Source: a virus | Length of the DNA stretch: 29,362 nt | Virus record (IMG/VR): IMGVR_UViG_3300031788_000397 | Coordinates: 1 to 29,362 of that record | Reading direction: 5' to 3' (one strand) | Part shown: in pieces, positions 1,564 to 26,805 of the stretch | Layout: every line of letters begins with the position of its first letter | Position numbering within the stretch: position 1 is the first letter of the stretch | The notes under the pieces: generated by a model | What the model saw: the letters and a program-made list of their open reading frames with translations, nothing else | Told to the model about the DNA's origin: nothing | The model's database searches: none | Translations under genes and position numbers: made by a program

Positions 1564-3191
1564 TACCAAAAGGCAGTTATATCTTTCCTCTTAAACCTGG
1601 TACTAAGGAGCCCTCCATTAGTGGGGGGCATCTTAGTGCTATCTTGGCTCCAGAAGAAGGTAGACCAAGAGGGAACTATGGCATACGTCTCGATGGGCAG
1701 TACATAGTCGTAGACATAGACTGTGAGCACCCAGATAGGGAATCCTTTGAAGCATCCCTGCCTCCCACCTGGGCCCAAAGAACGGCCAACAGAGAGGCCA
1801 GGGCTATTCACTACTTGTATACTGTCCCACCTGGCTACATAGGTTCAGGTAAGAGAGTATGGCTAGGTAATGATGGTAAGAGGTTCGCAGATATCAAGGC
1901 CAAGGGATACATAGTGGGCCCTGGATCTGTGGTAAACAGTAACGAGTATACACAGGCTACAGATAGTGAACCTATGCCTGCCCCAGAATGGCTATTAGAC
2001 TTTTGTCGATCTATACCATCGGAGGATCAAAATATAGTTTCAACACAATATGATGGAATTCCTAACGGAGATCATGATTCATTTTTGTCTACTCTTACCT
2101 ATTGGGCTTCTCATAGGTGGGGCCTATCCGAAGAGGCAAACAAGGTACTCCTTCGTGAAGGGCCCTTGGCTGTCCTACAGGGCACAGACCCCACTCACCC
2201 CTATCTTGAGACGGACATTGATCGTATAGCCCGTAGCGGGGCCTCTAAAGGCCAAGAAAGGCCATTAGAGCTGATTGAGGAATCCTGGATAACTGCCAAC
2301 CAATTGCCGGAGGATCAACCTATCACTAGGTGGCACCTGTATAACTTCATTCCCCAGCATGAATTAGTGCTTCAGTACGGCACAGGAGGCATAGGCAAGA
2401 GTACCTGGGTAGCCTGGTTAGTAGGACAAGTGCTAAAGAAGGGTTTAAGGGTAGGTTTCTGTGCTAGTGAGGAACCTTTTGTAAGGTTCGCAAACAGAGT
2501 CAGATTAGGGATGGTTAACTTTGAAGATAAGCTTTTTGACAACCTGTACGACATAGGAAACACTTGGAAGTTTCCAAGAGACGAAGAAAAACTCAAATCC
2601 GATCTAGAAACATGCCCACTCGATTTTATCTACTTCGATTCAATCTACGATCAATTTGATCATGGACAGAAAGGTATGAGCAGTCTTGCCGAAAAAGCCA
2701 GACCTTGCCTTACTCCCCTGATTCACATTGCTCAAGAAATGAAGGTCACCATATTGGGCACCTTCCATGAGAACAAGTCTGGAGACTTCAATGGACCCAA
2801 AGATATGGAGAACATACCTAGAGTCATGTTACACGCCACTAGCAAGGACGACAGACTGAAGCTCCAAGTCAAGAAGACTAACTTCACTAAGCCTGAATAT
2901 GGAATACAGGTTATAGGTTCATACATTCTAGAAACTAGCCGTAGTGGCAAACCAGTACTAGAAGAGAATGAAGAAGGTGAGATTGTCCAGAAGAATATCT
3001 ATGTAGTTACAGGTTATGAAAAGGTTAGTAAGACTGAAGAAACTGAATATGAACTACCCCCAGAGAAAATTGACAGAAATGAAAAGGTATTAGAGTTGAT
3101 TGATAAAGGGGTTTCTATACGAGATATTGAAAAAGAACTAGGAGTACCAAGATCTACGGTTTCTGATATTAAGAACAAGTTTAGAAACTGA
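1560..3191 (+). CDS. Prim-pol primase / RepA-like helicase fusion with C-terminal HTH
   Basis: This 543-residue protein starts at GTG 1560, overlapping the upstream stop. The N-terminal half carries archaeo-eukaryotic primase (prim-pol) hallmarks: a hydrophobic strand ending in DID (52-54), H84 and D111 in a GYIVGPGS context. The second half is a RepA/AAA_25-type RecA-fold helicase with Walker A GTGGIGKST (274-282) and a Walker B strand ending in D360. The last 35 residues (about 507-543) form a helix-turn-helix with an SIRDIEKELGVPRSTVSDI core. The predicted role is to unwind the template and prime phage DNA synthesis. The fused HTH could direct it to specific DNA, perhaps the hairpin directly downstream; that is inference. 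Confidence 0.9.
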   Translation: MIPKGSYIFPLKPGTKEPSISGGHLSAILAPEEGRPRGNYGIRLDGQYIVVDIDCEHPDRESFEASLPPTWAQRTANREARAIHYLYTVPPGYIGSGKRVWLGNDGKRFADIKAKGYIVGPGSVVNSNEYTQATDSEPMPAPEWLLDFCRSIPSEDQNIVSTQYDGIPNGDHDSFLSTLTYWASHRWGLSEEANKVLLREGPLAVLQGTDPTHPYLETDIDRIARSGASKGQERPLELIEESWITANQLPEDQPITRWHLYNFIPQHELVLQYGTGGIGKSTWVAWLVGQVLKKGLRVGFCASEEPFVRFANRVRLGMVNFEDKLFDNLYDIGNTWKFPRDEEKLKSDLETCPLDFIYFDSIYDQFDHGQKGMSSLAEKARPCLTPLIHIAQEMKVTILGTFHENKSGDFNGPKDMENIPRVMLHATSKDDRLKLQVKKTNFTKPEYGIQVIGSYILETSRSGKPVLEENEEGEIVQKNIYVVTGYEKVSKTEETEYELPPEKIDRNEKVLELIDKGVSIRDIEKELGVPRSTVSDIKNKFRN

Positions 3192-3205
3192 CCGAAAGTA
3201 TATTT

Positions 3206-3239
3206 ATATAGGGGGTCCGGTCGCCGGACACCCCTATAT
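3206..3239 (+). repeat. Strong inverted repeat (hairpin) after the primase gene
   Basis: The left arm, AT-rich ATATA plus GGGGG plus TCCGG, pairs with CCGGA, C, CCCC and TATAT. This gives about 15 paired bases around a three-base loop (TCG) with one bulged A. It lies in the only intergenic gap over 100 nt inside the replication arm. No T tract follows, so it is not a standard intrinsic terminator. Candidates are an attenuator, an mRNA processing or stability element, or an origin-associated palindrome near the primase gene. Confidence 0.75.
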
Positions 3240-3245
3240 CTTCCT

Positions 3246-3251
3246 TATAAT
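3246..3251 (+). promoter_or_regulatory. Isolated TATAAT, possible weak promoter
   Basis: A perfect -10 hexamer lies seven bases after the hairpin and upstream of the helicase region. No -35 resembling TTGACA is found at 16-18 bp spacing, because that place is occupied by the hairpin arm. It may be fortuitous or need an activator. Confidence 0.25.
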
Positions 3252-3265
3252 GGAGTTTGAGATGA

Positions 3266-3514
3266 GTAGAGCGTAGAATCATACTACCTCCCGCAGTCAT
3301 GGCACTCTATAGAAAGTTGGCGAAGGAATGGATAGCGGAGATCAACGGTCAAACTATCAACGGGACCCACTGTTTGACAAGATTTTTAAGGTTTCAGCAG
3401 ATTACATCCGGTTTCATTGGGATAGAGGGAACGAATGGTGTAAAAGGGATAGAGAATGTGCATACTGCAAAAGTAGAGGCAGTTTGCGAGGACCTGGAGG
3501 CCCTCCATGAGTAG
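3266..3514 (+). pseudogene. Fragment of a second SNF2-like helicase
   Basis: The frame aligns residue by residue with about residues 231-310 of the intact helicase that follows. It shares an LP....LY..L.K.W segment and a QQ(I/L)TSGFI core, then an (H)(T/S)AK segment. The similarity begins near codon 3266, upstream of the first in-frame ATG (3299), and no Shine-Dalgarno serves either point. Helicase motifs I-III and IV-VI are missing. It ends in TAG 3512-3514, overlapping the intact helicase start. The two DNA sequences have diverged, so this is not a recent tandem copy. It is most likely a remnant of another helicase left by recombination. A 71-residue product from ATG 3299 cannot be excluded. 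Confidence 0.7.
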
Positions 3515-4901
3515 CTTACCGCCACTGTGGCCCCATCAGGAGAAGGAGAGGGCCAACCACGGCAAGGACAAGCTTATGCTCCTCTGGTCCCCGCGACTAG
3601 GGAAGTCGAGAGCAGCTATAGATTGGCTCCAGAACGCTTGTAAGGGGTCACCACGCGTTCTTATCACTGCTCCCCTAGTTGTGTGCCCTCAATGGATGGA
3701 CATGCTCCTAGAGGCAGGACTGGAGCCTTACGCTGGGTATGGTATACCTACAACCAAGATAGCCACTGCCCTTAACTGGAAACATGTCCAACTAGTAGTG
3801 ATGAACGACGACAAGCTTGGGGCCTTGGAAGAGGCTCTGCTAAAGTGGGGACCGAACGTATACATTGGGGATGAGTCCCATAGGTTCCGGACACCGTCTT
3901 CAGACAGAGGCAGGGCTATGAGGAAAATAGCCTGGCAAGCACAGTACGTTCGCTTACTAACAGGGACTCCTACCCCAAACAACATCGGCAACCTCTGGGG
4001 ACAGATGACAGCCATAGACAAGAACCTATGGGGCAGTTCCTTTACAAAGTTTGCAAACAAGTATCTGATTCGCGATTCTATGTTCCCCTCTAAGATTTTA
4101 GGAGTACTACATGCTGAAGAACTAAGAGAGATGGTGGCAACTTCCTCAAGTGTCGTTAACCGAAGTGATGTATTTGGACCGGACCAATGGCAAACTGTGG
4201 TTCGTGAAGTCACTCTTCCTACTAGGGCACAGAAACTGTATAAAGACCTTGTAAAGGACTGGGTGGTGGAGGATGCTCTAGGCAAGAGTGAAGTCATCGA
4301 CGTTACTCATACTCTGAAGCGCATGACTAGGCTCCAACAGCTTACCTCTGGGTTTATAGTGGATGAAGAGGGTAACCAGCACCAGGTTCACAGTGCTAAA
4401 ACTGATCTCGTGATGAACGATTTAGAGGAGATCGTAGACTCTGGTGAGAAGGTAGTAGTCTTCCATAAGTTTACTGCTGAAGGGAACGAACTCTATGAAC
4501 GATCAGTACGACAGTTCGGAGTGGGACGAGTTCATCGCATCGCAGGAGATATATCCGGTAACAAACGACAGCTTTCTATTGACGCTTTCAATAAGAGCTC
4601 AGAAGCAAGTGTATTCATTGTTCAGACGCAAGCGGGGGGCATCGGCATTAGCCTCGCTACGGCCCTACACGTATTTTTCGTTTCTCAGAGCTTTAGTTAT
4701 GACATTGAACAACAGGCACGGGACCGCGTATACGCTCCCGGATGTGGAAGATGTGTTACATACTATAGGGTTAAGGGATCAATTGATAGCTACGTTGGGT
4801 CAGTCTTAGACCAGAAGGAGAATGTGCAGACAGCAGTCACAACCTCGACAATACACGAGATAGCATTCGATGAAGTAAAGCCAGAACGGGGAATGATATG
4901 A
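3507..4901 (+). CDS. SNF2/SF2-family DNA helicase
   Basis: A 464-residue superfamily 2 helicase, ATP-dependent and DNA-acting. Visible motifs in order are motif I SPRLGKS (28-34, a variant Walker A), Ia around 51-62, motif II DESH (122-125), motif III LTGTPTPN (151-158), motif IV region VVVFHKF (316-322), motif V TQAGGIGISL (374-383) and motif VI QQARDRVYAPG (402-412), as in SNF2-like phage helicases. It is short for the group, with no accessory domains. The start overlaps the upstream helicase fragment and the end overlaps the next gene as ATGA. It probably assists fork progression or recombination with the primase-helicase. Confidence 0.9.
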   Translation: MSSLPPLWPHQEKERANHGKDKLMLLWSPRLGKSRAAIDWLQNACKGSPRVLITAPLVVCPQWMDMLLEAGLEPYAGYGIPTTKIATALNWKHVQLVVMNDDKLGALEEALLKWGPNVYIGDESHRFRTPSSDRGRAMRKIAWQAQYVRLLTGTPTPNNIGNLWGQMTAIDKNLWGSSFTKFANKYLIRDSMFPSKILGVLHAEELREMVATSSSVVNRSDVFGPDQWQTVVREVTLPTRAQKLYKDLVKDWVVEDALGKSEVIDVTHTLKRMTRLQQLTSGFIVDEEGNQHQVHSAKTDLVMNDLEEIVDSGEKVVVFHKFTAEGNELYERSVRQFGVGRVHRIAGDISGNKRQLSIDAFNKSSEASVFIVQTQAGGIGISLATALHVFFVSQSFSYDIEQQARDRVYAPGCGRCVTYYRVKGSIDSYVGSVLDQKENVQTAVTTSTIHEIAFDEVKPERGMI

Positions 4902-9787: not shown

Positions 9788-9974
9788 GCAACCGCCTGAA
9801 TCCTACCATTCCATAGCTCTACAACGCCTAGCTGATAAATCTGCAGCCATAGAGCGGGACCTCTGTACCCTAAGAGACGCTGACATCTCAGACCATGCCA
9901 AAGCATTAGCCGCGATAGGAGCAGCAATTGAGCTTGCAAGAATCATTAGAGCCCTTGGAGAATACTACTCCTAG
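9771..9974 (+). CDS. Hypothetical helical protein, 67 residues
   Basis: ATG 9771 overlaps the polymerase end by 17 nt. After a Pro-rich N-terminus (residues 3-9), the protein is almost all helix, rich in Ala, Leu, Arg and Asp from about residue 14 to 64. No family is recognised. It overlaps the proposed TTG start of the next gene, as do several neighbours in this operon. Confidence 0.6.
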   Translation: MDLPPKQPPESYHSIALQRLADKSAAIERDLCTLRDADISDHAKALAAIGAAIELARIIRALGEYYS

Positions 9975-10788
9975 TTCTTTATTAGTCTTCTCCATGTCGG
10001 CTATATCTACATGGATGAGATGCAAAATGAAATATAAATACATGTACGAACTACTTTTAGATGGAGTTAAAGAGAATGAAGCTATGGCTGAAGGTACCGC
10101 CTTCCACACAATTATGGCCGATTATGCAAAAACCAGACAACTCGAAGACACTTCTCCTATGGGAGATGTTGCACGAGTATATCTTAATCACAGAGCCTTC
10201 CCGAATACGGTTGTCTTGGTTGAGGAACCTATCTATGTCGAGTTCCTTAACGGCGTATATGTTAGAGGGACCTGTGACCTTATTTATAAAGACGAAGACG
10301 GCACTCTGGTTGTACGGGATTGGAAGACGTTTGCCCGTCTACCCTCTTTGGATTCGGATTTGGATTTTCAAGCTCGTCTGTATATTGCTCTCGTCATGCG
10401 GCATTTTAGAACGACCAAAGTCAGGTTTGAACACGAGTATGTGAGAAGAACACCCCCTTTCATACCTAAGGATAAAGCAGGGAACGTATGGCAACCAGAG
10501 GATTGTTACCTCACTGAGTCCATCCTGGTCTCTGTGGCCGAATGCGCCCAGATCGTCCAAGAGGTACGATGGGAACTAGAGAATCTACTGAAAACAAGGG
10601 AAACAGGAGCTTATACTCGAACTAATCTAAAGGGAGGAGGATACTCTGACTGCAATGCCTGTAGTGTGAAAGAAATATGCAAAGTAGAACTCACTAATGG
10701 CGAATTGAATGACTCATTACTTTACGGAATTTCAAGGAAGAGAGACCCCATTGATATACTATTACCATTGCGACTCCAACGGTACTGA
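9928..10788 (+). CDS. PD-(D/E)XK nuclease, Cas4/RecB-like, probable 4Fe-4S cluster
   Basis: A RecB/Cas4-type exonuclease. Numbering from TTG 9928, the motifs are H60 in GTAFH, D117 in RGTCDLIY, D131 and K133 in VVRDWKT, and Q148/Y152 in the QARLY motif. C32 plus C242, C245 and C251 give the one-plus-three cysteine pattern of Fe-S nucleases such as Cas4 and AddB. The start is uncertain. TTG 9928 has AGGAG six bases upstream. ATG 9994 fits the domain start but has no ribosome site. The end overlaps the next gene by 80 nt. Next to a Sak4-like ATPase and a putative ssDNA-binding protein, it likely resects ends for recombination. Confidence 0.85.
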   Translation: MSLQESLEPLENTTPSSLLVFSMSAISTWMRCKMKYKYMYELLLDGVKENEAMAEGTAFHTIMADYAKTRQLEDTSPMGDVARVYLNHRAFPNTVVLVEEPIYVEFLNGVYVRGTCDLIYKDEDGTLVVRDWKTFARLPSLDSDLDFQARLYIALVMRHFRTTKVRFEHEYVRRTPPFIPKDKAGNVWQPEDCYLTESILVSVAECAQIVQEVRWELENLLKTRETGAYTRTNLKGGGYSDCNACSVKEICKVELTNGELNDSLLYGISRKRDPIDILLPLRLQRY

Positions 10789-11497
10789 TTCAATCTCCGA
10801 TGTTATAGGCCACAAGGATTTGCATCGAATGGCGGTGAATCACTACGAAGACTTTGATCGTCATGTCACTAGTATCGTGAACAAGCTCACACCAAAAGAC
10901 ATTGTGATAGTCGATACCCTGAATATGTTGGCATCAACAACCAGGACAGACTTCAAATTGGGGACTGATCCAACTGAACAACTATGGGGGAAACGTGAAC
11001 GAATCATCGCGGACAAAAATTACCTTACAGTATACACAGGCGCTAGCCAACTTATCCTTAGACATCTCAAAAATTGCTCAAGAGGTGGAGAAGGAGCGCG
11101 AATCATTGTCACTTGTCATGAAGCAGAAAGGGTTGATGAATCAACTATACCTCCCACGAAAAAGAGAGCACCTGATCTTAATGCAGAACTACTTGGTTCG
11201 CTTATCGGAAGTAGTTCAGATGTATTCAGACTTACGCGATTGGATGATCCGATTATCAACGACAAAGGAGAAGTCCTCTTAGCAGCAGGAACACGTTTGC
11301 TTCAACTACATGCAACAGATGAGTGGATGGCAAAATTTCAAGTACCACTGTCGAAAGTAGCAGGAATAAAGAAGATGCTAGCGAATCCTACATATCCGAT
11401 GTTATGCGAACATCTAGGAAAGGTCCCAACATGGCTGACGATTTACAGTCCTTCGGGAGTTGGAAAGAGTACATTCGTAACTTCGATGCTACGCTAG
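10709..11497 (+). CDS. Sak4-like RecA-fold ATPase with P-loop at the C-terminus (circularly permuted)
   Basis: The 262-residue protein reads like a Sak4/AAA_24 recombination ATPase that begins after the P-loop helix. It has a strand PLIYYYHCD (14-22), Walker B IVIVDTLN (65-72), a strand IIVTCHEAE (132-140) with the Sak4-type His, and a PDLNAELLGSLIGSSSDVFRL segment (155-175). The missing Walker A is at the extreme C-terminus: WLTIYSPSGVGKSTFV (242-257), ending five residues later. Both halves are in one frame with no break. Sak4 proteins are ssDNA-dependent ATPases of single-strand annealing recombination in phages. The order inversion suggests a natural circular permutation. The 5' end overlaps the nuclease gene by 80 nt. 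Confidence 0.85.
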   Translation: MTHYFTEFQGRETPLIYYYHCDSNGTDSISDVIGHKDLHRMAVNHYEDFDRHVTSIVNKLTPKDIVIVDTLNMLASTTRTDFKLGTDPTEQLWGKRERIIADKNYLTVYTGASQLILRHLKNCSRGGEGARIIVTCHEAERVDESTIPPTKKRAPDLNAELLGSLIGSSSDVFRLTRLDDPIINDKGEVLLAAGTRLLQLHATDEWMAKFQVPLSKVAGIKKMLANPTYPMLCEHLGKVPTWLTIYSPSGVGKSTFVTSMLR

Positions 11498-11616
11498 AAA
11501 TTCCCTCGAAAGTACAAGTAGCACTCGAAGTTATCGGCACACATCATGACAATAGAGTTACAACAGTAGCATTTGACGTAATATACAATTACTTGAAAGA
11601 GGAAGAGAATGTCTGA
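11431..11616 (+). CDS. Hypothetical 61-residue protein overlapping the ATPase P-loop region
   Basis: I chose ATG 11431, which has an AGGAAAGG site upstream. The frame can be extended to 11323, but that part lies wholly inside the ATPase gene. The first 22 codons are read from the same DNA that encodes the ATPase Walker A in another frame. The product is mixed, with a Trp/Tyr-containing N-terminus and a C-terminal TVAFDVIYNYLKEEE helix. No family is recognised. It overlaps the next gene by eight bases. Confidence 0.6.
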   Translation: MADDLQSFGSWKEYIRNFDATLEIPSKVQVALEVIGTHHDNRVTTVAFDVIYNYLKEEENV

Positions 11617-12124
11617 AGAACTTACGTATGACCTTAACGAAATCGTAGACTTTAAAAGCCAGGTCCCAGACGGTGAGTATATCGTCCGACTAGTAGACGT
11701 AGAGTTGGAAGGGCTTGGTACTGACAAGCCATACCTGCAAGCAACCTTTGCTATCCAAGAGGGAGAACTCGCAGGGGACGACTTCGCAAAGCGTTACTAT
11801 CTGTCCACCTTTAAGACTAAGAAGGGAGCCACGGGCTGTTTTGGGCTCTCTGACTTCCGTAGGGAAGCAGCAGCTATAGGGGCTGAAGCACAGATAAAAC
11901 AGAAGTTTACCGCTACTGAGTTTCGTAAGATATACGCTCAGATCTTCGGCAAGAAGAAACTGAAGATGATGAAGAGCATGCAGAAGGACGGCAAAGGCAA
12001 GCTGAACGAAGATGGAACTCCAGTAATGTATCAACGCTTCACAATCTTCTCACTTGCCAAACCAGAGCAACAACTCGTCTCCGTGGGAGCTGGATCAGAT
12101 CCTCTCGCAGAATTGGGGTTCTAA
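11609..12124 (+). CDS. Putative ssDNA-binding protein (DUF669-like)
   Basis: A 171-residue protein starting at ATG 11609 after GAGGAAGAG. The N-terminal half has a DGEYIVRLVDVELEG strand pattern followed by YLQATFAIQEGE, as in OB-fold DUF669-type phage proteins. Residues 103-135 are strongly basic and helical. The tail carries an acidic/hydrophobic end (DPLAELGF) reminiscent of the SSB C-terminal tip that recruits partners. DUF669-like and SSB-like genes often sit beside Sak4 recombinases, which fits here. The assignment rests on pattern and context. Confidence 0.6.
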   Translation: MSEELTYDLNEIVDFKSQVPDGEYIVRLVDVELEGLGTDKPYLQATFAIQEGELAGDDFAKRYYLSTFKTKKGATGCFGLSDFRREAAAIGAEAQIKQKFTATEFRKIYAQIFGKKKLKMMKSMQKDGKGKLNEDGTPVMYQRFTIFSLAKPEQQLVSVGAGSDPLAELGF

Positions 12125-12869: not shown

Positions 12870-13758
12870 ATAGCTTCCCCTGATAAATTGCCTTGTGATT
12901 TACAATACTGATCTGATCTACTGAATGAATGGGTATCTCCCCATCGACCACATTTATGACAGCGAAACCCTGACTCCAATCAGTTCGCGGCCTATCAGAT
13001 GGGACCCTGGTACCCATGAGCCTGTATGGGTTAGAAGAAGTTCCCGTTTGACATAGACAGCCGATGTCATACGTGAAATAAGTGTGCCTAACATCAAGTC
13101 CGTGCTGGACACGTGCATGCCTCTCGACTTTGTGTAGATGTCCATGAATCACGCTTGCTTGAAACTCGTGAGCTTTGGGAGGGGCATGAGTGAGAATAAG
13201 GTCGGGAAGTACATAATACTCACCCCCTGGGTAGTATCCGGGGGTTGTGATTCCAAGTTCGTCGTAACGTAGAAGGAATTGTTGAGAAAATACGGGCCAA
13301 GTATCTCCTGCTCGTTTGACTCGCATGGCTTTCCGGTTGTGCTCCAGTAGGAATTTTTCTGGTCGAATGTCATGGTTTCCCCCAATCATTATTTTTTTGG
13401 TGAGCTGTGGTCCAGCGGCCGATATAAACGAGCAAAGTTGATCGTACCCTTCTCGTATGGACTCATTGACTGCATCGTATTCTTCGTGCTGGGTATATCG
13501 TGAGAGGAATGGCCAGTCCATCCAATCACCAATGAAATACAGCTCCCTAGGTGATACGTCCATACAAACATATTTGGCTATCCTCATAGCTTCTGGGTCA
13601 TGTATAGGTTCTATAACCTTGGTCTCTGGGTCCTGCAAGTATCCGATCTGTGTGTCAGATACTACGACCGCCTGCCAAGTCTTCTTGAGAACTCTAAAGG
13701 TCTTAGGAGAAAACTTGATAACTTTCGGCCTGGCACAGTTAACTATGGGGAAGTCCAT
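12862..13758 (-). CDS. Calcineurin-like metallophosphoesterase
   Basis: A 298-residue di-metal phosphoesterase. Motifs are SDTQ (34-37, a DxQ variant of DxH), GDWMD (77-81), GNHD (127-130), H191 and GHLH (206-209). All metal ligands are present except that the first His is Gln, a variant seen in other phage enzymes. The substrate could be a nucleic acid or a small phosphodiester and is unknown. The start overlaps the stop of the large transglycosylase gene by one base (TAATG). Co-transcription with virion genes is notable but does not prove it is packaged. Confidence 0.9.
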   Translation of the reverse strand: MDFPIVNCARPKVIKFSPKTFRVLKKTWQAVVVSDTQIGYLQDPETKVIEPIHDPEAMRIAKYVCMDVSPRELYFIGDWMDWPFLSRYTQHEEYDAVNESIREGYDQLCSFISAAGPQLTKKIMIGGNHDIRPEKFLLEHNRKAMRVKRAGDTWPVFSQQFLLRYDELGITTPGYYPGGEYYVLPDLILTHAPPKAHEFQASVIHGHLHKVERHARVQHGLDVRHTYFTYDIGCLCQTGTSSNPYRLMGTRVPSDRPRTDWSQGFAVINVVDGEIPIHSVDQISIVNHKAIYQGKLYE

Positions 13759-16220
13759 TAAATTCCTACTTCTTTCGCTATCTTCTTCTTTTGTGCTCTA
13801 ACAATCTTCGGTTTCTCTTCCGTCCTACGTCCCATGTTGAGGAAGGACGCTTCGATAACATTAGCAAGCTCATCAACTAGGTTCGCTTTACCGCCCGAGG
13901 GGCTCTGTTCAGTTGAGCTTTTGAATGCCTTACCTACATCCTCCAGGCGTGGTAAATACGCCGTGGCGAGGTCCAAGCCGATCTGCCCTAGACCCTTGAA
14001 CTTGCCTTCATCTTCTTGCTGTTTTAGGTCGAAGAGTTCAGATATTGCCCCAATTCTAGACCCGGAGGTTAGATAGTGAACCGGATCCGAGAAGAATGCT
14101 AGGGCTTCATTTATGGGTGTGGAGAACGTCTGGTTCTTACCCGCCTTGGTCTTCTGCCAATCTTTTTGGGCATTAAGAAAGTTTGTCACACGACTGGGAT
14201 TTTCTTGCATGACTTTCAGGAACTGTTGAGGAACTATACCTAAACCAAAAGCTACGAAAGGACCGCCCAATGCCTGAAATACCTTCACAAATGCCGATTG
14301 ATTCCTATAGTCACCTACTCTATCAGATATCAGATGCCCTTTCAAATACTCCTCAACTGAACCCGGTGCGGAAGGACCTAATTTCCGGTCTAATTGCTCA
14401 AGTAAACCAGATCTCCAGCCAACCTCCATCCGGTGAAGAAGATCATTCGAAGCCTGAGTGAATTTGTTGTTTGTGGGGACGGAGTAATCTTGCATTGCTC
14501 CCATCTCTCCCAATCTCTTCTCAATCACCGGATTATGTGAAATCATGTGCTTGAACCCACTAAAGACCGCCTGCATACCACCGGCTTGGTATGTCAAAGT
14601 CCCTACGTTCACAAGACCGTGAGGGATTGGGTTCCAGAGGATAGCCTTCTTACCTAGTTTACCCAGTTCGACAAGGGGATTGTGTTCCTCCACGGTTCGG
14701 AGAGCACGAAATATAGGTGAGTTATCCTGAACACCCAGTCTTTTGAGTTGTGCCGGGAGTCCGGTGTGCAATACACCTGGTCGTGCTCTAGAAAGAGCGG
14801 CAAACTCAGCATTAGCCCCTCTAGTGGCGGCATGTATATCGTTAGGATTAGCGTTAAGGTGCTTGTTCTCTACAGCAAGACGAACCTTCTTGCCTTCTGC
14901 TGTGAGTCCAGCACGGTCGAGGTCTCTTCTTGCTACAAACGCATCTGCGAGGGCTGTGTGGGCCTGTGCGAGCAGCGGAAGGTGGGGGAAGTGTTGTGCT
15001 ATTCCCATTGACTGAGCAACGCCGTGAGCAGCTCTAGCCACCGCTGCAGGCGCATGCAGACCGATGTGCATGAGTCCGGTGCCGATGTGCCCGCCACCCC
15101 CCTCAAGTATCTGCTGACCAATATCAGTTCCTGTTTCGAGGATACCATTTATGTACGGTGCCATTACTTTCGGACTATGTAGGGTATTGCGGACAAACTT
15201 GTCGATTTGAGCATGTGAAGGTATTACGGTGACATGTTTTCCAGTTACATCGTAAGCAGCTTGATTCAGGGCTTCCCCCAAACCTGATGTTGACTGTGCC
15301 TCATTCTTTTCAGTGGGGTTGAAGACCATATCCCAGACATGGTGGAGACCTTCCTGGTATTGCTTAATCATTGCATGAGTAGGAGCATCAGGGGTTTTGT
15401 CTATCTCAGCGGCTTCATATAATGCGCCACCCATTCCTCTTTGAAGGCCGCTAATGACTCCTAAAACGGCATCAACCGGATGATGTCGCATCTCATCCCA
15501 TGCCTGAATACCTCTAACCTCGAAATCGTGTAGAGGTCTTGTAGTCTGAAGGTGACCCATAACTTTGGGCGTGATCGGTTGACCGCGCTGAACGGCACCG
15601 AGGATGGTGTGGGTGTCGTGTTTGACTTTCTCAACTAAAGAGGGGCTGTGAAGGATCTGATCGTCACTACCCATGTTGCTAATCACGGAGTCTGCGTATG
15701 CCAAGCCCTGAGCTGAAGTCCTGCTTCCAGAGTTGTACATCGACAGGGCTTCACGGAGATTACCTCCTGTGGCCTTGAGGTTGTCCTTCATCATATTAGC
15801 TGACAGTTCAGCAGCATATGCTGGGTCCTTAGCAGCACGGTCTAGCTTGTCCTTAGAGATACCAGAAGCAGGATCTAACTGCCAGGGGCTCACACCCTTA
15901 TTACTGTCTCTGTCACGGCCTGTAGCTGCATTGTAGTTGCCGCCAGCTCCTAGACCTGACTCCTGCATTCCAATAGCCTGCATGATCCTAGGGTTGAGGC
16001 CAGAAGCACTTGAGACTTTGTTTATGATGGGGTCATAGGTGTGGGGAGTAGCTCTAGACATCGGAACGAGTGGCACAAAGTCAGAAGACGCTACTGGCTG
16101 AAAGTCAGCAGCAGCAGGGGGAGCTTCCGTAGGTGCGGCAGTAGGAGCAGGGTTGACCGGCTTGAAGTCTGCTGAAGATACAGGTTTGAAGTCATCAGCA
16201 GATACTCCCGGACTAGCCAC
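13758..16220 (-). CDS. Large internal virion (ejection) protein with lytic transglycosylase domain
   Basis: An 820-residue protein, the largest in the window. Residues 9-52 contain four DFxPV-type repeats. Residues about 61-170 form an SLT lysozyme-like domain: IMQAIGMQESGLG with catalytic E87, a SPWQLDP segment (111-117) and YNSG (162-165). The rest is helical and Ala-rich without known domains. This layout is that of T7 gp16-type ejection proteins, which open the peptidoglycan during genome entry, but it is shorter than gp16. It lies downstream of a coiled-coil protein in the gp15 position. Assignment to the ejectosome is inference from domain and gene order. Confidence 0.85.
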   Translation of the reverse strand: MASPGVSADDFKPVSSADFKPVNPAPTAAPTEAPPAAADFQPVASSDFVPLVPMSRATPHTYDPIINKVSSASGLNPRIMQAIGMQESGLGAGGNYNAATGRDRDSNKGVSPWQLDPASGISKDKLDRAAKDPAYAAELSANMMKDNLKATGGNLREALSMYNSGSRTSAQGLAYADSVISNMGSDDQILHSPSLVEKVKHDTHTILGAVQRGQPITPKVMGHLQTTRPLHDFEVRGIQAWDEMRHHPVDAVLGVISGLQRGMGGALYEAAEIDKTPDAPTHAMIKQYQEGLHHVWDMVFNPTEKNEAQSTSGLGEALNQAAYDVTGKHVTVIPSHAQIDKFVRNTLHSPKVMAPYINGILETGTDIGQQILEGGGGHIGTGLMHIGLHAPAAVARAAHGVAQSMGIAQHFPHLPLLAQAHTALADAFVARRDLDRAGLTAEGKKVRLAVENKHLNANPNDIHAATRGANAEFAALSRARPGVLHTGLPAQLKRLGVQDNSPIFRALRTVEEHNPLVELGKLGKKAILWNPIPHGLVNVGTLTYQAGGMQAVFSGFKHMISHNPVIEKRLGEMGAMQDYSVPTNNKFTQASNDLLHRMEVGWRSGLLEQLDRKLGPSAPGSVEEYLKGHLISDRVGDYRNQSAFVKVFQALGGPFVAFGLGIVPQQFLKVMQENPSRVTNFLNAQKDWQKTKAGKNQTFSTPINEALAFFSDPVHYLTSGSRIGAISELFDLKQQEDEGKFKGLGQIGLDLATAYLPRLEDVGKAFKSSTEQSPSGGKANLVDELANVIEASFLNMGRRTEEKPKIVRAQKKKIAKEVGI
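16065..16196 (-). repeat. Four DF(K/Q/V)P(V/L) repeats in the transglycosylase protein
   Basis: Residues 9-52 contain DDFKPV, ADFKPV, ADFQPV and SDFVPL, each preceded by Ser or Ala and separated by Pro/Ala-rich linkers of uneven length. Such short linear motifs could dock onto another virion protein. Confidence 0.75.
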
Positions 16221-17424
16221 CTACGGGGTAGTAGTTGCCGTCCGCATCTACTCTCACTTTACGACCTTTGACCATGTACTCGCCTGGAGGAACACCGGCA
16301 GGAGCACGACCAAGTGAGTTTCTCTGTACGTTTACAGCGGGTTTGCCAGATCCCGCACCAAGAAATGCTGAAACCTGTGGGTTAGCTGCAACACTGTCAC
16401 GAAGAGTTTGATCTGCCTCCTTGGCAGTTGTTAGTGCAGTCTTAGCATCTTCAACGGCCTGGGTTGCAGCAGCAAGTTGATCCGGGTCCGTCACGTTCGC
16501 GTAGGCTGTTGCTAGGCTGCTCTCAGCCTTATCAACAGAGGTTTGTAGACCACGAAGTTGGGTAGTAGAAGTGGAGAGAAGGGACCGTACAGCTCCCATA
16601 GCTCCATTTGGAGAAGACTGGAAACGCTGTTGGAGATTGTTCACACTTTGTGTGTATGCAGCAGCACGAGTAGCAGCAGCTCCCGCAGTTGTTACAACAG
16701 CAGAAGCTCTAGAAGCATCTAGTCCAGCTTGAGCATAGTACTGAGCTGCACGAGCAGGAATGAGGTTACCTTCCGCATCTTTATACTTAGCGTTGACCAC
16801 CTCTTGCCTGGACCTAACCACATCTTCTCTAATGTAGTGACTGTCCATACTGTGTACACGGTCGAGAGCGGCCTGGTCCTTCGCATCTACAAAGGGTTTG
16901 GCTGAGTACATAGATTTCGGGACACCTGAATACTGGTCGAGAATACCTTTACGAGCAGCAGCAGGTAATGAAGCTATAGCAGTCATAGTCTTAGGGTCTG
17001 AAGCCAATACGTCAAACGGCTGTTTCAAGCGGTCGATGTCAACAGCTTTACCGTCCTTGGTAAATTCTGGGAGCTGACCTGCAGCACTAGAGAGAGCCTT
17101 GTACTTCGCTACAAAGTCGGGGTCTTTGGCACGGGAAGGATCAGTGATCATCTGTTGAGTTAGGGTCTTGAGGTCAACACCAGCAGCGGCCTTCTTGTCT
17201 GAGGCCATCTTGTCTGTAGTGCCCTGTAAGGTTAGGGCATTAGAGGCCATGGTCTGGGTGTTGAGCTGAGTCTGTTGGTTGAAAAGCTGTTGCTTCTGAA
17301 TGTCTTCAGCCTTCGTTTCCTTCTGTTGCTCAAGCTGTTGCTTCTCTCCCTGATAGCCAGAGAGAAGACCGCCAAGGACTCCCATGAGTCCTCCGCTAAA
17401 ATTAGGTGCGGTAGGAGTGTCCAT
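16213..17424 (-). CDS. Putative internal virion protein, coiled-coil, Gln-rich
   Basis: About 403 residues from the ATG at 17424, chosen because GGGGAAG lies just upstream and it follows the ATP-grasp stop by one base. The frame extends to an ATG at 17460. The N-terminus has a Gly-rich turn and a small hydrophobic segment (about 7-22), then a long Gln/Lys/Glu coiled coil (about 24-50). Ala-rich helices fill the middle, with another coiled coil around 270-330. The C-terminus contains a YMVKGRKVRVDADGNYYPV tail. It occupies the T7 gp15-like position before the transglycosylase protein and overlaps it by eight bases. Function is inferred from position and composition. Confidence 0.75.
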   Translation of the reverse strand: MDTPTAPNFSGGLMGVLGGLLSGYQGEKQQLEQQKETKAEDIQKQQLFNQQTQLNTQTMASNALTLQGTTDKMASDKKAAAGVDLKTLTQQMITDPSRAKDPDFVAKYKALSSAAGQLPEFTKDGKAVDIDRLKQPFDVLASDPKTMTAIASLPAAARKGILDQYSGVPKSMYSAKPFVDAKDQAALDRVHSMDSHYIREDVVRSRQEVVNAKYKDAEGNLIPARAAQYYAQAGLDASRASAVVTTAGAAATRAAAYTQSVNNLQQRFQSSPNGAMGAVRSLLSTSTTQLRGLQTSVDKAESSLATAYANVTDPDQLAAATQAVEDAKTALTTAKEADQTLRDSVAANPQVSAFLGAGSGKPAVNVQRNSLGRAPAGVPPGEYMVKGRKVRVDADGNYYPVGG

Positions 17425-17425
17425 G

Positions 17426-18760
17426 TTACTTCCCCAATCTAGAGTGGGTTTTCCACCCATACTTCTTCAATTGTAGCAAATCTTTGTTTATATTGTCTGC
17501 CGCATCTGTACGATACTGTAGGTTTTGAATCTGTAGTTCTTCGTCGATGTAATCATAGATGTCATCGTACCCAGCTGTCACTGAGTTCCCTTCACATACG
17601 ATGGTTGCTACATAGCCGGGGGGTGAAGCGACAGTTATACCTTCAGATGGATCAAACGCTATTCCAGACGCTACGAAGTACTTGTCCCAGAAGCCATCAA
17701 TCCCATGAACAGGAATACCCAAAGCAGGACTCTTGTTGTCGAGTTTTGCGATATAGTTTGGATAAGGCGGCACAGAAACATGAAGCCCGTGATATATAGT
17801 ACTGGTATCAAATAGATCATCAATCCCTTGTCCTGTAGCTACATTCCAGAGAAGTTGTCCCAAATTAGATATACCCCTCTGGCTAGTCATCTCAGAATCA
17901 TAGCCCAATCGAGGAGTCCACTCTAGGAACCAGGCCCCCTCATTGTTAACAATAGAGTTAATGTCATATATCCCTGGAGCAGCGTTCTTGGAACGAAAGA
18001 CACTCTCTAGTTCTGCAAACTTCAGTTCTCTCGCTATCTCTGGCTCTTCCTCCTGGTAGAACCATACTGTGTTCAGGGAACAGCCCGTCGCTGGACCCTT
18101 GTCCCCATTCAGGAACTTCTTCTCCTCCAGTGTAGCCCAGTAAGGCCCAACCCACGCCGTCCCATTCCACCATCTTGCCGTACTTAGGGCAACCCCAGGT
18201 ATACGCTCCTGAATAATACATTTTAGGTTATCTCCGTACTGACGTTGTATATGCTGTAGACCGCGAATCATTTCATCTTCGTCAGAAGTTACAAGGGTTG
18301 TGTCACATCCGAGACTCTTGTTTGGCTTCCAGGCCCATCCGCCATCCCCTGATTCCTGCTCCGGCTTACTCGAAAGGAATGCTATAGACTCAGAAACAGT
18401 GGCAAATTGAGTAGTAGGAGGGCAAAGAATACCCACTTGTTTAGCAATGTCTTCCCCAACTTCGCGTTTTTGCTCCAAGGTATCTTGGAATTTCCCACCA
18501 CCAAGCACTAGTTTTCCTGACCTCCTGAGACGTTCGGCAAGTTCTCCATCGTCGGTGAAATCAAAAAAGAATAGAGTATTGGGATCTGCTAGACCCCATT
18601 TCATCCATTCATCAAAGTTGAAACTTATGGGAACCAATCCCACGCCTACCCTACGGTAGAGACTTTCTTTGCAGTACACAAGGATCTCAACACCTTCCTC
18701 AAGTAGGCGTCTCATCCAAGAGAGGGAGAGGAACTCGAGGGTGTGATAGGCTACTCTCAT
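17426..18760 (-). CDS. ATP-grasp ligase, PurD-like
   Basis: A 444-residue protein with an ATP-grasp layout close to phosphoribosylamine-glycine ligase. It has an N-terminal Rossmann-like region, the ATP lysine in WAWKPNKS (K145), a hinge strand CIIQERIPG (181-189), and an LEEKKFLNGDKGPATG segment (211-226) matching the PurD K...GD.GP.TGG loop. The Mg-binding YDINSI (265-270) and FLEWTPRLGYDSE (278-290, E280) follow. These enzymes join a carboxylate to an amine via acyl-phosphate. The substrate is unknown, and PurD proper is less likely because no other purine gene is near. Its start overlaps the Gln/Asn-rich gene (ATGA). Its place among ejection-protein genes is unusual. Confidence 0.85.
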   Translation of the reverse strand: MRVAYHTLEFLSLSWMRRLLEEGVEILVYCKESLYRRVGVGLVPISFNFDEWMKWGLADPNTLFFFDFTDDGELAERLRRSGKLVLGGGKFQDTLEQKREVGEDIAKQVGILCPPTTQFATVSESIAFLSSKPEQESGDGGWAWKPNKSLGCDTTLVTSDEDEMIRGLQHIQRQYGDNLKCIIQERIPGVALSTARWWNGTAWVGPYWATLEEKKFLNGDKGPATGCSLNTVWFYQEEEPEIARELKFAELESVFRSKNAAPGIYDINSIVNNEGAWFLEWTPRLGYDSEMTSQRGISNLGQLLWNVATGQGIDDLFDTSTIYHGLHVSVPPYPNYIAKLDNKSPALGIPVHGIDGFWDKYFVASGIAFDPSEGITVASPPGYVATIVCEGNSVTAGYDDIYDYIDEELQIQNLQYRTDAADNINKDLLQLKKYGWKTHSRLGK

Positions 18761-19716
18761 CCAAGGGAACCATATAACGCGTCAGTAAATGCGGACGATG
18801 CTCCTCCAGTTCCTACACCACCCAAAAGTCCAAGACCTGCTCCAAGAGTAGACCCAATACCAGAGTTCTTACCTGATTGTTGCTGTTGAGCCTGCTGACC
18901 GAACGAGGAAGCCTGTGCCGCATTTTGCTGAGATATGCCCGCTAAAGCATTCATTGCCTGTTCCAGGTTAGAAGTGCCCTGCTGCATGAAGGAGTTAGTA
19001 TTGTTAAGAGAGTTTTGTCCCTGCGTGAGAGTAGAAAGAAGGTTCTGAAGAGACTGAGCGTTGCCTTGCTGACCAGCGGTGTTACCAGCTTGTAGTAGGC
19101 CCAGTTTCTGTGTATCCAATCCACTGGCAGTGTTGGCAACTCCCTGCGCTCCCTGCTGCATGATGTTCTGATTCTGACCAGCGAGGTTACCCTGCAGGTT
19201 AGCAGTGTTCTGGAGAAGTTGACTTTGGTTGTTCTGCATCAGAGCGTTCGTGTTGGTGCCAGGAGCAGCATTAGCTAGGATGTTCTGTAGACCACCCTGA
19301 GAGGCTTGTGCAAGCTGGTTCTGAGCGTTCTGAGCGTACTGAGGGTTTAACCCTTGAGTCTGCTCGTTCTGGTAGAACTGCTGCAGTCCAGGAGTAGCTT
19401 GAGCTAAGTTTGTGTTCTGAGGCTGTGAGGCATAGCCAGTTAACTGTTGTAGTCCAGTATTAGGATTAACTCCGGTCTGACCGGAGAGGTTACCACCAGA
19501 GTTTAGAGCAGTATTAAGACCAGAAGAAAGTCCTCCAGATACAGCTCCTGTGTTATTGCCATAAGCACTAGCTAAACCTTGAAGAAGAGGCTGATAAGAC
19601 TGAGTGTTAGTGTTAGCAAGTTGACCAGCATAACCAGAAAGTTGATTGTTAATCTGACCCTGATTGTTCAGAGCAGTTTGTTCTGCACCACTAGCACTGT
19701 TCTTGCCGCCGCCCAT
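18757..19716 (-). CDS. Gln/Asn-rich putative internal virion protein
   Basis: The 319-residue protein is dominated by Gln, Asn, Gly, Ala, Leu and Ser and has hardly any charged residues between about 30 and 280. The C-terminal 30 residues contain a Gly/Leu-rich hydrophobic segment (GSTLGAGLGLLGGVG) that could insert into membrane. It lies where T7 has gp14, the ejection protein that reaches the outer membrane, and precedes the ATP-grasp and coiled-coil genes. The polar low-complexity body resembles prion-like or amyloid-prone sequence. No enzymatic motif is visible. Confidence 0.75.
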   Translation of the reverse strand: MGGGKNSASGAEQTALNNQGQINNQLSGYAGQLANTNTQSYQPLLQGLASAYGNNTGAVSGGLSSGLNTALNSGGNLSGQTGVNPNTGLQQLTGYASQPQNTNLAQATPGLQQFYQNEQTQGLNPQYAQNAQNQLAQASQGGLQNILANAAPGTNTNALMQNNQSQLLQNTANLQGNLAGQNQNIMQQGAQGVANTASGLDTQKLGLLQAGNTAGQQGNAQSLQNLLSTLTQGQNSLNNTNSFMQQGTSNLEQAMNALAGISQQNAAQASSFGQQAQQQQSGKNSGIGSTLGAGLGLLGGVGTGGASSAFTDALYGSLG

Positions 19717-19717
19717 A

Positions 19718-20008
19718 TCACTTCACTTGATTCTTTCCGCCTGTAGCACCTTGGGGTTGTTGCATGTTATTCTTACCGTTTTGCCCAGTCGCAGGGTTCT
19801 GTTGCATTGCATTCTTAGCGCCGGTACTAGCCTTGTTTTGTTGTTGCCCTGACGTTGCATTCACGTTGTCCATATGAGCTGTAACGTGAGCTAGGAGTTG
19901 GCCTATTGAAGCGGGAGTAGGTTGGCCTGCACCTTTACCCTGTACCCCAGCATTTTTGCCTCCAGCACCGGAGGCTCCAGCTCCAGCAGATGCTCCTGTA
20001 CTACCCAC
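19718..20008 (-). CDS. Disordered Gly/Ala/Gln-rich small protein
   Basis: 96 residues. The N-terminal 30 are Gly/Ala/Ser with a few Lys. A short helix-like SIGQLLAHVTAHMDNV (34-49) is the only ordered-looking part. The rest is Gln/Asn/Lys/Gly disorder. The start overlaps the GNAT-like gene by eight bases, and the stop lies one base before the Gln/Asn-rich gene's start. It is probably a minor virion or assembly protein, by context only. Confidence 0.65.
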   Translation of the reverse strand: MGSTGASAGAGASGAGGKNAGVQGKGAGQPTPASIGQLLAHVTAHMDNVNATSGQQQNKASTGAKNAMQQNPATGQNGKNNMQQPQGATGGKNQVK

Positions 20009-20429
20009 AACGAATGCCTGCTTTCACGACTGGGTGACCATCAGGTAACATTCCTTCTTGCTCTACTCCCCAACCGTACTTTTTCATAGTTCTTAGCATA
20101 GAGAAGTTGTCAGCTACGATGTATCCGTACTTGTAATTGTACGGTAATTGTACGATAAGTTCAATCAAACCCCTTATAGCCACCGCTTGCCCTTTGCTTC
20201 CATCTCCGTAAAATCCATAAACGAAGAGTTCACCAGGAAGATTATCAGAGACAAATAATCCGCACACGGCGCGAAGAGCTTCCTTGTAGAATGATCCCAT
20301 CCATAGTACCGAATTCCCATAAGCGTAGTCTGTATCCTTATCGTATGGAATCTTCCAACGGTCACAGTAGTCATTTATGAAGGGTCTGGCCATGAAATCT
20401 GGAATACGTGAGATGAATGGCTTCTTCAT
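20001..20429 (-). CDS. GNAT-like protein in the T7 gp13 position
   Basis: A 142-residue protein with an N-acetyltransferase-like alpha/beta layout. Aromatic-rich strands around 64-75 lead to a GSKGQAVAIRGLIELIV segment (77-93) at the place of the acetyl-CoA pyrophosphate loop and helix. A YIVADNFSMLRTMKKYGW segment (103-120) matches the common N..s..l..k.GF end of GNAT enzymes. T7 gp13 belongs, as I recall, to a GNAT-related family of similar size near the ejection proteins, which fits. Catalytic activity cannot be judged. It overlaps the neighbouring starts by four and eight bases. Confidence 0.6.
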   Translation of the reverse strand: MKKPFISRIPDFMARPFINDYCDRWKIPYDKDTDYAYGNSVLWMGSFYKEALRAVCGLFVSDNLPGELFVYGFYGDGSKGQAVAIRGLIELIVQLPYNYKYGYIVADNFSMLRTMKKYGWGVEQEGMLPDGHPVVKAGIRCG

Positions 20430-20830
20430 TGAAGTTTTATCCCCAGGCTCTGAAGGATGGACATAAGTGGATTCTGTTGTTGCGCTCCCCCCTGCTGTGG
20501 TTGGCTTTGTGGTTTTTGCTGTTGTCCTTGCTGCCCTTGGGCTACTCGTGGTTGCCCTGCTGCCGGAGGAGGAACTTGAGTCCCAGATAGAGCTTGGAGA
20601 ATTTGCGGAAGCATGTCAGCCAAAGAAGGAACCTGAGACCCATCTTTCGGAGGCGGCTTGGTCGGTTGACCACCCTGACCTGGTTGGCCGGGAGATTGAC
20701 CGCCTGAAACCATTAAATGAGAAAGAAGCACCATAAGAAGCTCTGGAGGGATGTTAGGAGGGGGCTGACCCCCAGGAGCGCCTCCAGGGGGTTGCTGACC
20801 TTGTTGTGGACTAGGAGGTTGACCTGACAT
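20426..20830 (-). CDS. Disordered Pro/Gln/Gly-rich protein, 134 residues
   Basis: The N-terminal 30 residues and the 90-118 stretch are Pro/Gln/Gly runs. Two short hydrophobic helices stand out: PPELLMVLLSHLMV (28-41) and SLADMLPQILQALSG (69-83). A third, LMSILQSLGIKL, lies at the C-terminus. Short helices in a flexible chain suggest a linker or binding protein in the virion. Its start shares one base with the stop of the gene before it (TAATG). No family is recognised. Confidence 0.65.
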   Translation of the reverse strand: MSGQPPSPQQGQQPPGGAPGGQPPPNIPPELLMVLLSHLMVSGGQSPGQPGQGGQPTKPPPKDGSQVPSLADMLPQILQALSGTQVPPPAAGQPRVAQGQQGQQQKPQSQPQQGGAQQQNPLMSILQSLGIKLQ

Positions 20831-21012
20831 TATTTTCCATTGCCGCCTTTTCCGCCCTTACCGCCTTGACCCTGCCAAATGGCATCCTTCGAAGCCTTAG
20901 AATCCTTCAAAAGCTTAGTGACTGCGTCTTCGCCCTTTTGGAGCAGGTTTCTGGTATCAGTAGCAGGTGCAGGCTTTTTCTTAATAACTGGTTTCTTATC
21001 GCTGTTTGCCAT
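20830..21012 (-). CDS. Small Lys/Gly-rich disordered protein, 60 residues
   Basis: A basic N-terminus with KKPVIKKKPAPA (6-17), a short amphipathic helix (about 21-45) and a GGKGGKGGNGK tail. It overlaps the previous gene's end by 17 nt and its stop overlaps the next start. No family is recognised. The packing within a virion operon argues for a real gene. Confidence 0.55.
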   Translation of the reverse strand: MANSDKKPVIKKKPAPATDTRNLLQKGEDAVTKLLKDSKASKDAIWQGQGGKGGKGGNGK

Positions 21013-21187
21013 TGTTATTCCCCTTTATAGGATTCCACATGTTGCTGTTATACTTCGCGAACTTGCCCCACATACCTTGCCCACCTCCTTGGAAGCCTTG
21101 AAAGGTACGCTGAAAACGCTTCATATCTGGAAGTTTTGGCATACCTGGGAAAGTCTCTTGCCAGTTGGGAGGTTTTGGTGTGTCCAT
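20996..21187 (-). CDS. Small Gly/Phe/Lys-rich protein, 63 residues
   Basis: The product is basic and contains FQRTFQGFQGGGQGMWGKF (25-43), Trp residues and Pro-rich starts, with no acidic surface to speak of. It begins one base before the stop of the upstream structural gene region (21189) and overlaps the next small gene. It is probably a minor structural or assembly protein; function unknown. Confidence 0.55.
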   Translation of the reverse strand: MDTPKPPNWQETFPGMPKLPDMKRFQRTFQGFQGGGQGMWGKFAKYNSNMWNPIKGNNNGKQR

Positions 21188-21188
21188 G

Positions 21189-21698
21189 TCACCCTCTTTG
21201 AATGTAAACCGTTCCTACAATTGTACCACTTTGTCCTGCTGTACCCGAAACATTAACACCAAAGACCGAATAGCTGCCAGGGCCTAGGAAGGGAGCAGGG
21301 ACATAAATACTGGCGGTAGGATTGGGAGTAGGATTACCTGGGATAACGGCGTACCCCTTGAACAATACCCAAGCTGGGGCATTCATGAGTGATAGAGTGT
21401 AGATCAATAGGTCACCCTGGTTGATAACCATGAGTGATTGGGTGCCCTGAGCCGCAGGCTGTACGTTGTTGGAGATGTTCGTCCGAGTCGGCATGTTTGT
21501 GAAGGTGAATGAAAACGTACCTGTAGCCGGTAGAACGAAGTTAACGCAGTCTACACATAGTAACTGAGGCGGATTAGCCAGAGGGAGAGATGCAGTAGCT
21601 TGAGTTGTAGTAGTCTTAGGTATGTAGACGCCTTTGCTTGCACTGTATTCATTGACAGTCCTCACGCTGATCTGTTTAGGGGTAGGCGGCACAGTCAT
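21189..21698 (-). CDS. Putative virion structural protein, 169 residues
   Basis: A Thr/Pro/Val-rich beta protein with alternating hydrophobic residues throughout and almost no helix. After a polar N-terminus (1-35), a FVLPATGTFSFTFTNMP segment and a LGPGSYSVFGVNVSG segment suggest an Ig-like or jelly-roll domain. Its start overlaps the stabilisation-protein stop by one base (TAATG). It may be a tail or fibre accessory; no specific family is recognised. Confidence 0.65.
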   Translation of the reverse strand: MTVPPTPKQISVRTVNEYSASKGVYIPKTTTTQATASLPLANPPQLLCVDCVNFVLPATGTFSFTFTNMPTRTNISNNVQPAAQGTQSLMVINQGDLLIYTLSLMNAPAWVLFKGYAVIPGNPTPNPTASIYVPAPFLGPGSYSVFGVNVSGTAGQSGTIVGTVYIQRG

Positions 21699-23494: not shown

Positions 23495-24894
23495 TACTGG
23501 AAGTACGCAACCATGACCATAGTCATGGGGGTAAACGCCAACTGGTCATTACAGGTCCAGGTGACAGATGGTGAGGACCCGCCAATAGCCGTACCGTAGA
23601 ATGTAAAGGGGAAGTTAGCTGCTGCACCATTCTGGTACTGTTGAGGACTATTAGGCCAGGTAACACCTGCTCCGGTCCCTGTTAGAGTAAGGGTTTTAGA
23701 AGAATCTAGGAACTGTAGCGAACCGGAACATATAATCAGGAAGTTGTCACTAGCTAACCCAGGTAGTGCGGGTAATGTAATCGAACCCGTTGTTGCTGGA
23801 GGACTGAAGTTAACTGCAGTAGCGTACGTAGCTCCCATATGAGGATGCGTTGAAGATACCTCAAGCTGGTATGAGGAAGGAGTATCTTGTACAATGGCTA
23901 TACTGTTGTCCGGTGATGTAAGGGTAACTACGGGTGTAGTACCATTCACTGTTATGGAGTCGCCTGCGTTTAGAGTTACATTAGCGAGTTGTGTGTTGCC
24001 ATTTACTCCTAAAGATCCGCCTATACTTGTGTTTCCAGTTACACCTAGGCTGTCAGTAGTTAGTCCTCCTGTTACCGTTTCTCCATTGGGAACAGTTAAA
24101 CCACCACTTATTGTAGCTCCAGTGGAGACATTAAGCTGGAATAGATCAGTAGGGGCTCCCGTAACAGAGAGTCCGTCAGTCATAGTGACAGCACCAGCGA
24201 CGCTAAGGGTACTGTCCATAACGACAGGACCAGTAAAGGTTGAAGTGCCCGTGAAAGTTGGGTTGTTGAAACTCGGTGGGATAGGGGCTCCCGTTATACG
24301 AGCATAAGGGATATCTCCAGCTACTAGGACGCCTTCTTCGTTTACAGCCCAGACTTGGACCGTGTTAACAATGAAGTTGTCGAGAAGTGAGTTAACAGAG
24401 GATGAAGTGTTCGTTACGTCAATTTGACGCGCCACAACGACAGTAGCACTGCCAGCATCCCAGGTAAGATTTACCTGTTGCGAGGGATCTCCCGAAGCCA
24501 GTACTACTGGGGGTGTGCTTATGACTGATCCATTAGCATCTATCTCGAAAAACTCCTGCCACACAATAGGGGTGCCAGGAATAAGTGTGGGAGGACCGTA
24601 CTTCCAATTCCAGGTGCCTGCCTGACACATCTCCATGGCATACGCTGGGATGTTTGGGTTCGTAGGGTCCTCTTGAGTCCATTCGAGTGTAGTCTCATCA
24701 AAGTCGGCATTAACGACAAACCAGAGACATCCAACAACCTCGCGGATGACAGCGTAGGTTGCTCCAGCTTCAGAGGCATCAAATATAAGGCCAGGGTAGA
24801 CCGTATTGATGACAATATCATACGGGTACACATTTGCATTGGACGTAGAAGGGACAATGCTAAAGGGGTAGTAAACAGGTCCTAAATTAGCCAT
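23494..24894 (-). CDS. Tail-fibre-like protein with beta-repeat stalk
   Basis: About 466 residues from the ATG at 24894. That start is chosen because GGGGAGG precedes it and it overlaps the adaptor stop as TAATG, whereas the frame's TTG extension to 24912 has no such site. Residues 1-200 look like a mixed virion-attachment domain. Residues about 210-330 are a Thr/Gly/Val/Ser repeat region starting with NPTFTGTSTFTGPV, typical of fibrous beta stalks. The C-terminal 120 residues form a compact beta domain (SITLPALPG, FLIICSG, SLQFLDSS) likely to be the tip. It is presumably a host-binding or appendage protein. Confidence 0.72.
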   Translation of the reverse strand: MANLGPVYYPFSIVPSTSNANVYPYDIVINTVYPGLIFDASEAGATYAVIREVVGCLWFVVNADFDETTLEWTQEDPTNPNIPAYAMEMCQAGTWNWKYGPPTLIPGTPIVWQEFFEIDANGSVISTPPVVLASGDPSQQVNLTWDAGSATVVVARQIDVTNTSSSVNSLLDNFIVNTVQVWAVNEEGVLVAGDIPYARITGAPIPPSFNNPTFTGTSTFTGPVVMDSTLSVAGAVTMTDGLSVTGAPTDLFQLNVSTGATISGGLTVPNGETVTGGLTTDSLGVTGNTSIGGSLGVNGNTQLANVTLNAGDSITVNGTTPVVTLTSPDNSIAIVQDTPSSYQLEVSSTHPHMGATYATAVNFSPPATTGSITLPALPGLASDNFLIICSGSLQFLDSSKTLTLTGTGAGVTWPNSPQQYQNGAAANFPFTFYGTAIGGSSPSVTWTCNDQLAFTPMTMVMVAYFQ

Positions 24895-25745: not shown

Positions 25746-25746
25746 A

Positions 25747-26798: not shown

Positions 26799-26805
26799 AC
26801 ATCAC

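Follow-up and report, generated by a model that had tools for sequence, protein, structure and literature searches.

A probably circularly permuted Sak4, a phage recombination ATPase, with its Walker A segment at the C-terminus

The locus and its genomic context

The window, as we call the whole 29,362-nucleotide stretch analysed here, is the viral record IMGVR_UViG_3300031788_000397. Its replication module comprises genes for a primase, helicase, PhoH, thymidylate synthase, HNH protein, DNA polymerase A, exonuclease, permuted Sak4, SSB-like protein and an apparent VRR-type nuclease, the last label being our reading of a match to the phrog_93 endonuclease. The structural half (13758-28850) lies on the minus strand, and most of its proteins have no PHROG match. 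Matches to an internal virion protein and a lytic tail protein suggest a podovirus-like phage. The genes at and around the putative permuted Sak4 are:

9928..10788, plus strand: upstream PD-(D/E)XK exonuclease gene, same operon (PDDEXK_1, 3.8e-20; phrog_69, 5.8e-24)
10751..11497, plus strand: putative permuted Sak4 gene, 248 aa from TTG 10751 or 262 aa if from ATG 10709 (phrog_124, 9e-13; AAA_24, 8.6e-7, above its cut-off)
11431..11616, plus strand: small ORF in another frame, starting inside the Walker A segment; present in contig L001 (3690-3998), absent in contig L012; not part of the enzyme
11609..12124, plus strand: downstream SSB-like gene with a weak DUF669 match, same operon (phrog_7778 SSB, 7e-4; DUF669, 0.03; L001 homologue, 8e-6)

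The order polymerase–exonuclease–Sak4–SSB–nuclease–phosphoesterase is conserved in two other viral contigs, L001 (IMGVR_UViG_3300015203_000004) and L012 (IMGVR_UViG_3300012208_000005). Conventional Sak4 genes have an exonuclease as neighbour in Aikoy, Turuncu and PHTowN, and a DUF669 SSB in phage Bhz54. The permuted gene occupies the normal Sak4 slot, exonuclease–Sak4–SSB.

Reading frame, start codon and order of motifs

The original prediction described an unbroken frame at 10709-11497. Direct reading confirms that all 262 codons are open, but the start is probably TTG 10751 and not ATG 10709. In both L001 and L012 an ATG stands at the codon matching TTG 10751 (MIYYYGCDGNG and MIYLYSTDGNG, respectively) and overlaps the exonuclease stop. 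Upstream of that ATG neither homologue has an open frame, there being just 3 and 6 codons since the preceding stop. Since both homologues start at this codon, the native protein would begin at strand 2 of the ATPase fold. At 10751-10788, where the exonuclease ends and Sak4 begins, the window has about 22 bases fewer than L001, the loss lying between near repeats (ATTGATAT). Because of this loss the exonuclease end is frameshifted and its frame runs on to 10788, leaving TTG as the likely Sak4 start.

The frame contains IVIVDT (Walker B), IVTCHEAE and PDL...GSL in the order usual for Sak4, as had been predicted. It closes with WLTIYSPSGVGKSTFVTSMLR-stop, so that the Walker A segment does lie at the C-terminal end; VPTWLTIYSPSGVGKSTFVTSMLR forms the final 24 residues before the stop. 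The parts of the protein can be listed as follows.

10751..10792, plus strand: new N-terminus, corresponding to ATPase strand 2 (MIYYYHCDSNG), aligned to the conventional Sak4 profile from position 44-45
10901..10918, plus strand: Walker B strand IVIVDT (D55), aligned with the conventional Walker B; the Asp is invariant in three permuted proteins
11114..11128, plus strand: CHEAE, end of the next strand; same motif in the conventional Sak4s L002 and L007
11333..11335, plus strand: K195, equivalent to the Lys of the conventional AK-x-R motif, whose Arg is absent here
11423..11494, plus strand: relocated segment with strand 1, Walker A and helix 1 (VPTWLTIYSPSGVGKSTFVTSMLR), identified by phrog_124 (46-63), AAA_24 (5-22) and the selection test below
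11447..11470, plus strand: Walker A, SPSGVGKS by direct reading (K239; K253 in the numbering of the original prediction); SPSGVGKS in L001 and GPPGVGKS in L012

The linear order is therefore strand 2, Walker B, the CHEAE strand, the C-terminal helix and then strand 1, Walker A, helix 1 and stop. Relative to the normal family, the break sits precisely at the boundary of helix 1 and strand 2. D8 (10772-10774) stands at the position of the catalytic acidic residue of RecA-type ATPases and may have that role. D8, the Walker A Lys and Ser, the Walker B Asp D55, H123-E124 and K195 are kept in all three permuted proteins.

Homologues with the same order

Homologues of the same order, for which the original prediction proposed a search, lie on the two further viral contigs. 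The L001 protein (gene at 3001-3753), found in a viral contig scan, is 75% identical to that of the window over its whole length, tail included. The L012 protein (gene at 2392-3135), found by scanning with the C-terminal 59 residues, is 61% identical and ends VPTWLTVYGPPGVGKSTFVTSSLREKV-stop. Both have the same order and the same stop position, and the contigs come from other metagenomes, making three datasets in all. Only three members are known, none of them cultured. A tblastn search of INPHARED phages and PLSDB plasmids, together with scans of GTDB contigs, gave no relative at a usable E-value, and scans with the neighbouring polA and exonuclease returned the L001 contig only. Four other candidates (L013-L016) were set aside, the tail match being the ordinary mid-protein P-loop of a primase-helicase, and another (L010) was rejected as a chance match to CHEAE.

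Profile matches and the rotation test

The body of the window protein matches Pfam AAA_24 and phrog_124, the PHROG family of Sak4-like ssDNA annealing proteins. It enters phrog_124 only after the P-loop, at position 74 (residues 25-213). On each of the three contigs phrog_124 gives two matches, one to the body (71-238, 74-236 or 91-250) and, downstream of it, one to the tail (46-64, 46-63 or 47-62); the same search found no second Sak4 in the three contigs. The E-values over the three permuted proteins range from 9e-13 to 6e-16. With AAA_24 the tail is matched at 5-22 and the body at 38-192 (for L012 the tail alone is listed in this search, its body having been matched in the Pfam scan), and the proteins as they stand score 29.4, 43.2 and 35.8 bits against a cut-off of 27. 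A profile of eight conventional Sak4s (seven from annotated phages plus L002) aligns with the body from position 44 on and with the tail at 22-38.

Rotated strings, used for scoring only, gave a consistent picture. Placing the tail in front produced the top score among all rotations with the eight-sequence profile, raising it from 7.4 to 28.5, from 31.8 to 47.0 and from 7.9 to 23.1 bits; none of 300 shuffled tails reached the rotated score. The AAA_24 scores rose from 29.4 to 40.3, from 43.2 to 51.9 and from 35.8 to 43.9 bits, a gain of 8 to 11 with a single match over 5-192 of 195, and the phrog_124 scores from 49 to 62, from 55 to 69 and from 60 to 71 bits, a gain of 11 to 14. In both families the two separate partial matches are replaced, on rotation at exactly this junction, by one that spans the full length. 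The three independent contigs, the profile matches in permuted order and the rotation test support the claim that this Sak4 is circularly permuted.

Selection on the tail and trivial explanations of it

Between the window and L012 the tail (72 bases, 24 codons) differs at 26 nucleotides but by only 4 amino acids. Random placement of the differences is expected to cause 15.0 amino-acid changes, and none of 20,000 simulations gave as few as 4. Judging from these substitutions, the tail is functional and under strong purifying selection. When 205 open frames with 100 or more codons were examined, only the three orthologues ended in a motif of this kind, apart from a weak match in one unannotated frame.

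These findings bear on two explanations that would make the unusual order trivial. One is that a conventional Sak4 lost its N-terminus and carries a chance look-alike of Walker A, possibly as a by-product of the ORF at 11431-11616. That ORF does overlap the tail in both the window and L001. However, L012 lacks it and keeps the tail, so the tail is not its by-product; moreover, 22 of 24 positions of the tail are conserved in the main frame against 11 of 23 in the other, and the simulations point the same way. With homologues of the same order already contradicting it, we regard a chance look-alike as extremely improbable. The other is that the gene's 5' end was misplaced during assembly or where contigs were joined; the deletion of about 22 bases at the gene start, relative to L001, might be invoked for it. 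Against this, the order is common to three contigs from three datasets with 61-75% protein identity, and both flanking genes are intact. The homologues exclude a conventional Sak4 whose N-terminus was lost to such an error, and the chance that the order is an artefact is very slight. We also rejected the idea that translation passes into the small ORF downstream by programmed frameshifting, because L012 lacks that ORF. Nor does the L012 protein have a hidden continuation, since its SSB gene starts 2 bases past the Sak4 stop.

Relation to known ATPases

The permuted proteins resemble the Sak4 family (phrog_124; AAA_24, PF13479), which includes the proteins of HK620 and of staphylococcal phage 52A (PDB 8RC5), in the body, which extends from strand 2 as far as the C-terminal helix, in Walker B, the CHEAE-type strand and the type of Walker A, and in the exonuclease–Sak4–SSB operon. 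They differ in having Walker A at the C-terminus rather than N-terminal before strand 2, in lacking the Arg of AK-x-R and in a longer RGGEGA insert ahead of the CHEAE strand. The RecA, RAD51, RadB and UvsX core has the same set of motifs, in conventional order, and probably the same fold class; RecA's extra domains are absent from Sak4-type proteins.

Natural circular permutation of a P-loop NTPase is also found in the GTPases YjeQ/RsgA, YlqF and YqeH. These are TRAFAC-class enzymes with the order G4-G5-G1-G2-G3, unlike the present protein, a RecA-type (ASCE) ATPase with its break directly after helix 1. No GTPase G-motifs (NKxD first) were read in the permuted Sak4, and the Pfam scan gave no GTPase family. 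To our knowledge, circular permutants are rare among P-loop enzymes and none occurs in the RecA-type class. In a literature search, whose scope took in few subscription journals, we found neither a published permuted Sak4 nor a natural permutant among RecA-like or AAA+ ATPases.

If the enzyme works, the RecA core can be interrupted immediately behind the P-loop helix, the fold's most conserved part, and the protein would offer a small natural test case for the roles of strand order, the trans finger and filament assembly. Annotation pipelines that seek an N-terminal P-loop would call such enzymes truncated.

Structure, mechanism and origin

We consider it likely that the protein is a true circular permutant of phage Sak4, with a RecA-like core and a composite site of Walker A and Walker B, acting as an ATP-dependent annealer. 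The chain would fold into the usual RecA-like core. A few residues (GKVPT) connect the C-terminal helix to strand 1, and the end of helix 1 would lie in space at the start of strand 2, which leads us to infer that the core can close. The C-terminal Walker A would then meet Walker B and D8 from the N-terminal half in one ATP site. Conservation of the residues concerned is what suggests an active site built from both ends of the protein. The neighbouring SSB would help to load the enzyme onto ssDNA produced by the exonuclease, where it would assemble and, like the Sak4 of HK620, anneal strands with the help of ATP. HK620 Sak4 binds ssDNA, anneals only with ATP and is stimulated by its cognate SSB (PMC5928155).

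The subunit interface may differ from that of conventional Sak4s. In the Sak4 of phage 52A (8RC5), one protomer holds ATP-gamma-S through Walker A Lys41/Thr42 and Tyr216 and the next through Lys229/Arg231/His232, the AK-x-R motif reaching the nucleotide of the neighbouring protomer (PMC11846896). The Arg two residues past the Lys of this motif is invariant in the eight conventional Sak4s. It is missing in all three permuted proteins, which have Gln, Gln and Pro instead, while the Lys is kept. Hydrolysis or subunit contact may therefore differ, and the composite site would include an altered subunit contact.

Two other readings of the permuted protein were weighed. In one, it has lost ATP hydrolysis and acts in annealing as a structural filament that binds ATP or nothing, with Walker A serving binding or folding only. 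The loss of an otherwise invariant trans Arg fits such a protein, as does the finding that the K30A mutation of PA73 Sak4 reduces recombineering only 1.7-fold (PMC5928155). We think it quite unlikely, given that three divergent members share D8, the Walker B Asp and both the Lys and the Ser of Walker A without exception, that the tail is under strong purifying selection and that HK620 Sak4 requires ATP (PMC5928155). In the other, Walker A is donated in trans, with the C-terminal segment exchanged between adjacent filament subunits and each ATP site made of two chains. ATP does lie at the subunit interface in the RecA/Sak4 class (8RC5; PMC11846896), and the linker ahead of strand 1 (GKVPT) is short. 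However, the end of helix 1 and the start of strand 2 match (profile positions 38 and 44), which fits closure within one chain, and donation in trans seems unlikely to us. An extension of this idea, that the permutation changed the ATP sites of the filament such that the C-terminal Walker A enters the neighbour and the lost trans Arg became dispensable, is likewise doubtful.

AlphaFold2 gave a mean pLDDT of 35 with the three permuted sequences and of 47 with seven rows including conventional fragments, both from alignments too shallow to show how the tail packs, and in neither of these unreliable models is the tail folded as a P-loop. The models are poor because there are too few homologues. 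With the pLDDT-47 model, itself of low confidence, the best folds in Foldseek were RAD51, DMC1, RecA and phage RecA-like proteins (E about 0.002-0.01 for RAD51, DMC1 and RecA).

Circular permutants typically arise when the outer parts of a duplicated gene are lost. The permuted gene, too, probably arose by tandem duplication and subsequent loss of the outer halves. In translation no significant relic of a second copy was detected, and at the DNA level the best match was a 15-base exact one in the exonuclease gene, so the duplication can be put forward only as the probable origin.

The small ORF that overlaps the tail has no family match. Its C-terminal half (VQVALEVI...AFDVI) is conserved between the window and L001, and its middle varies in length.
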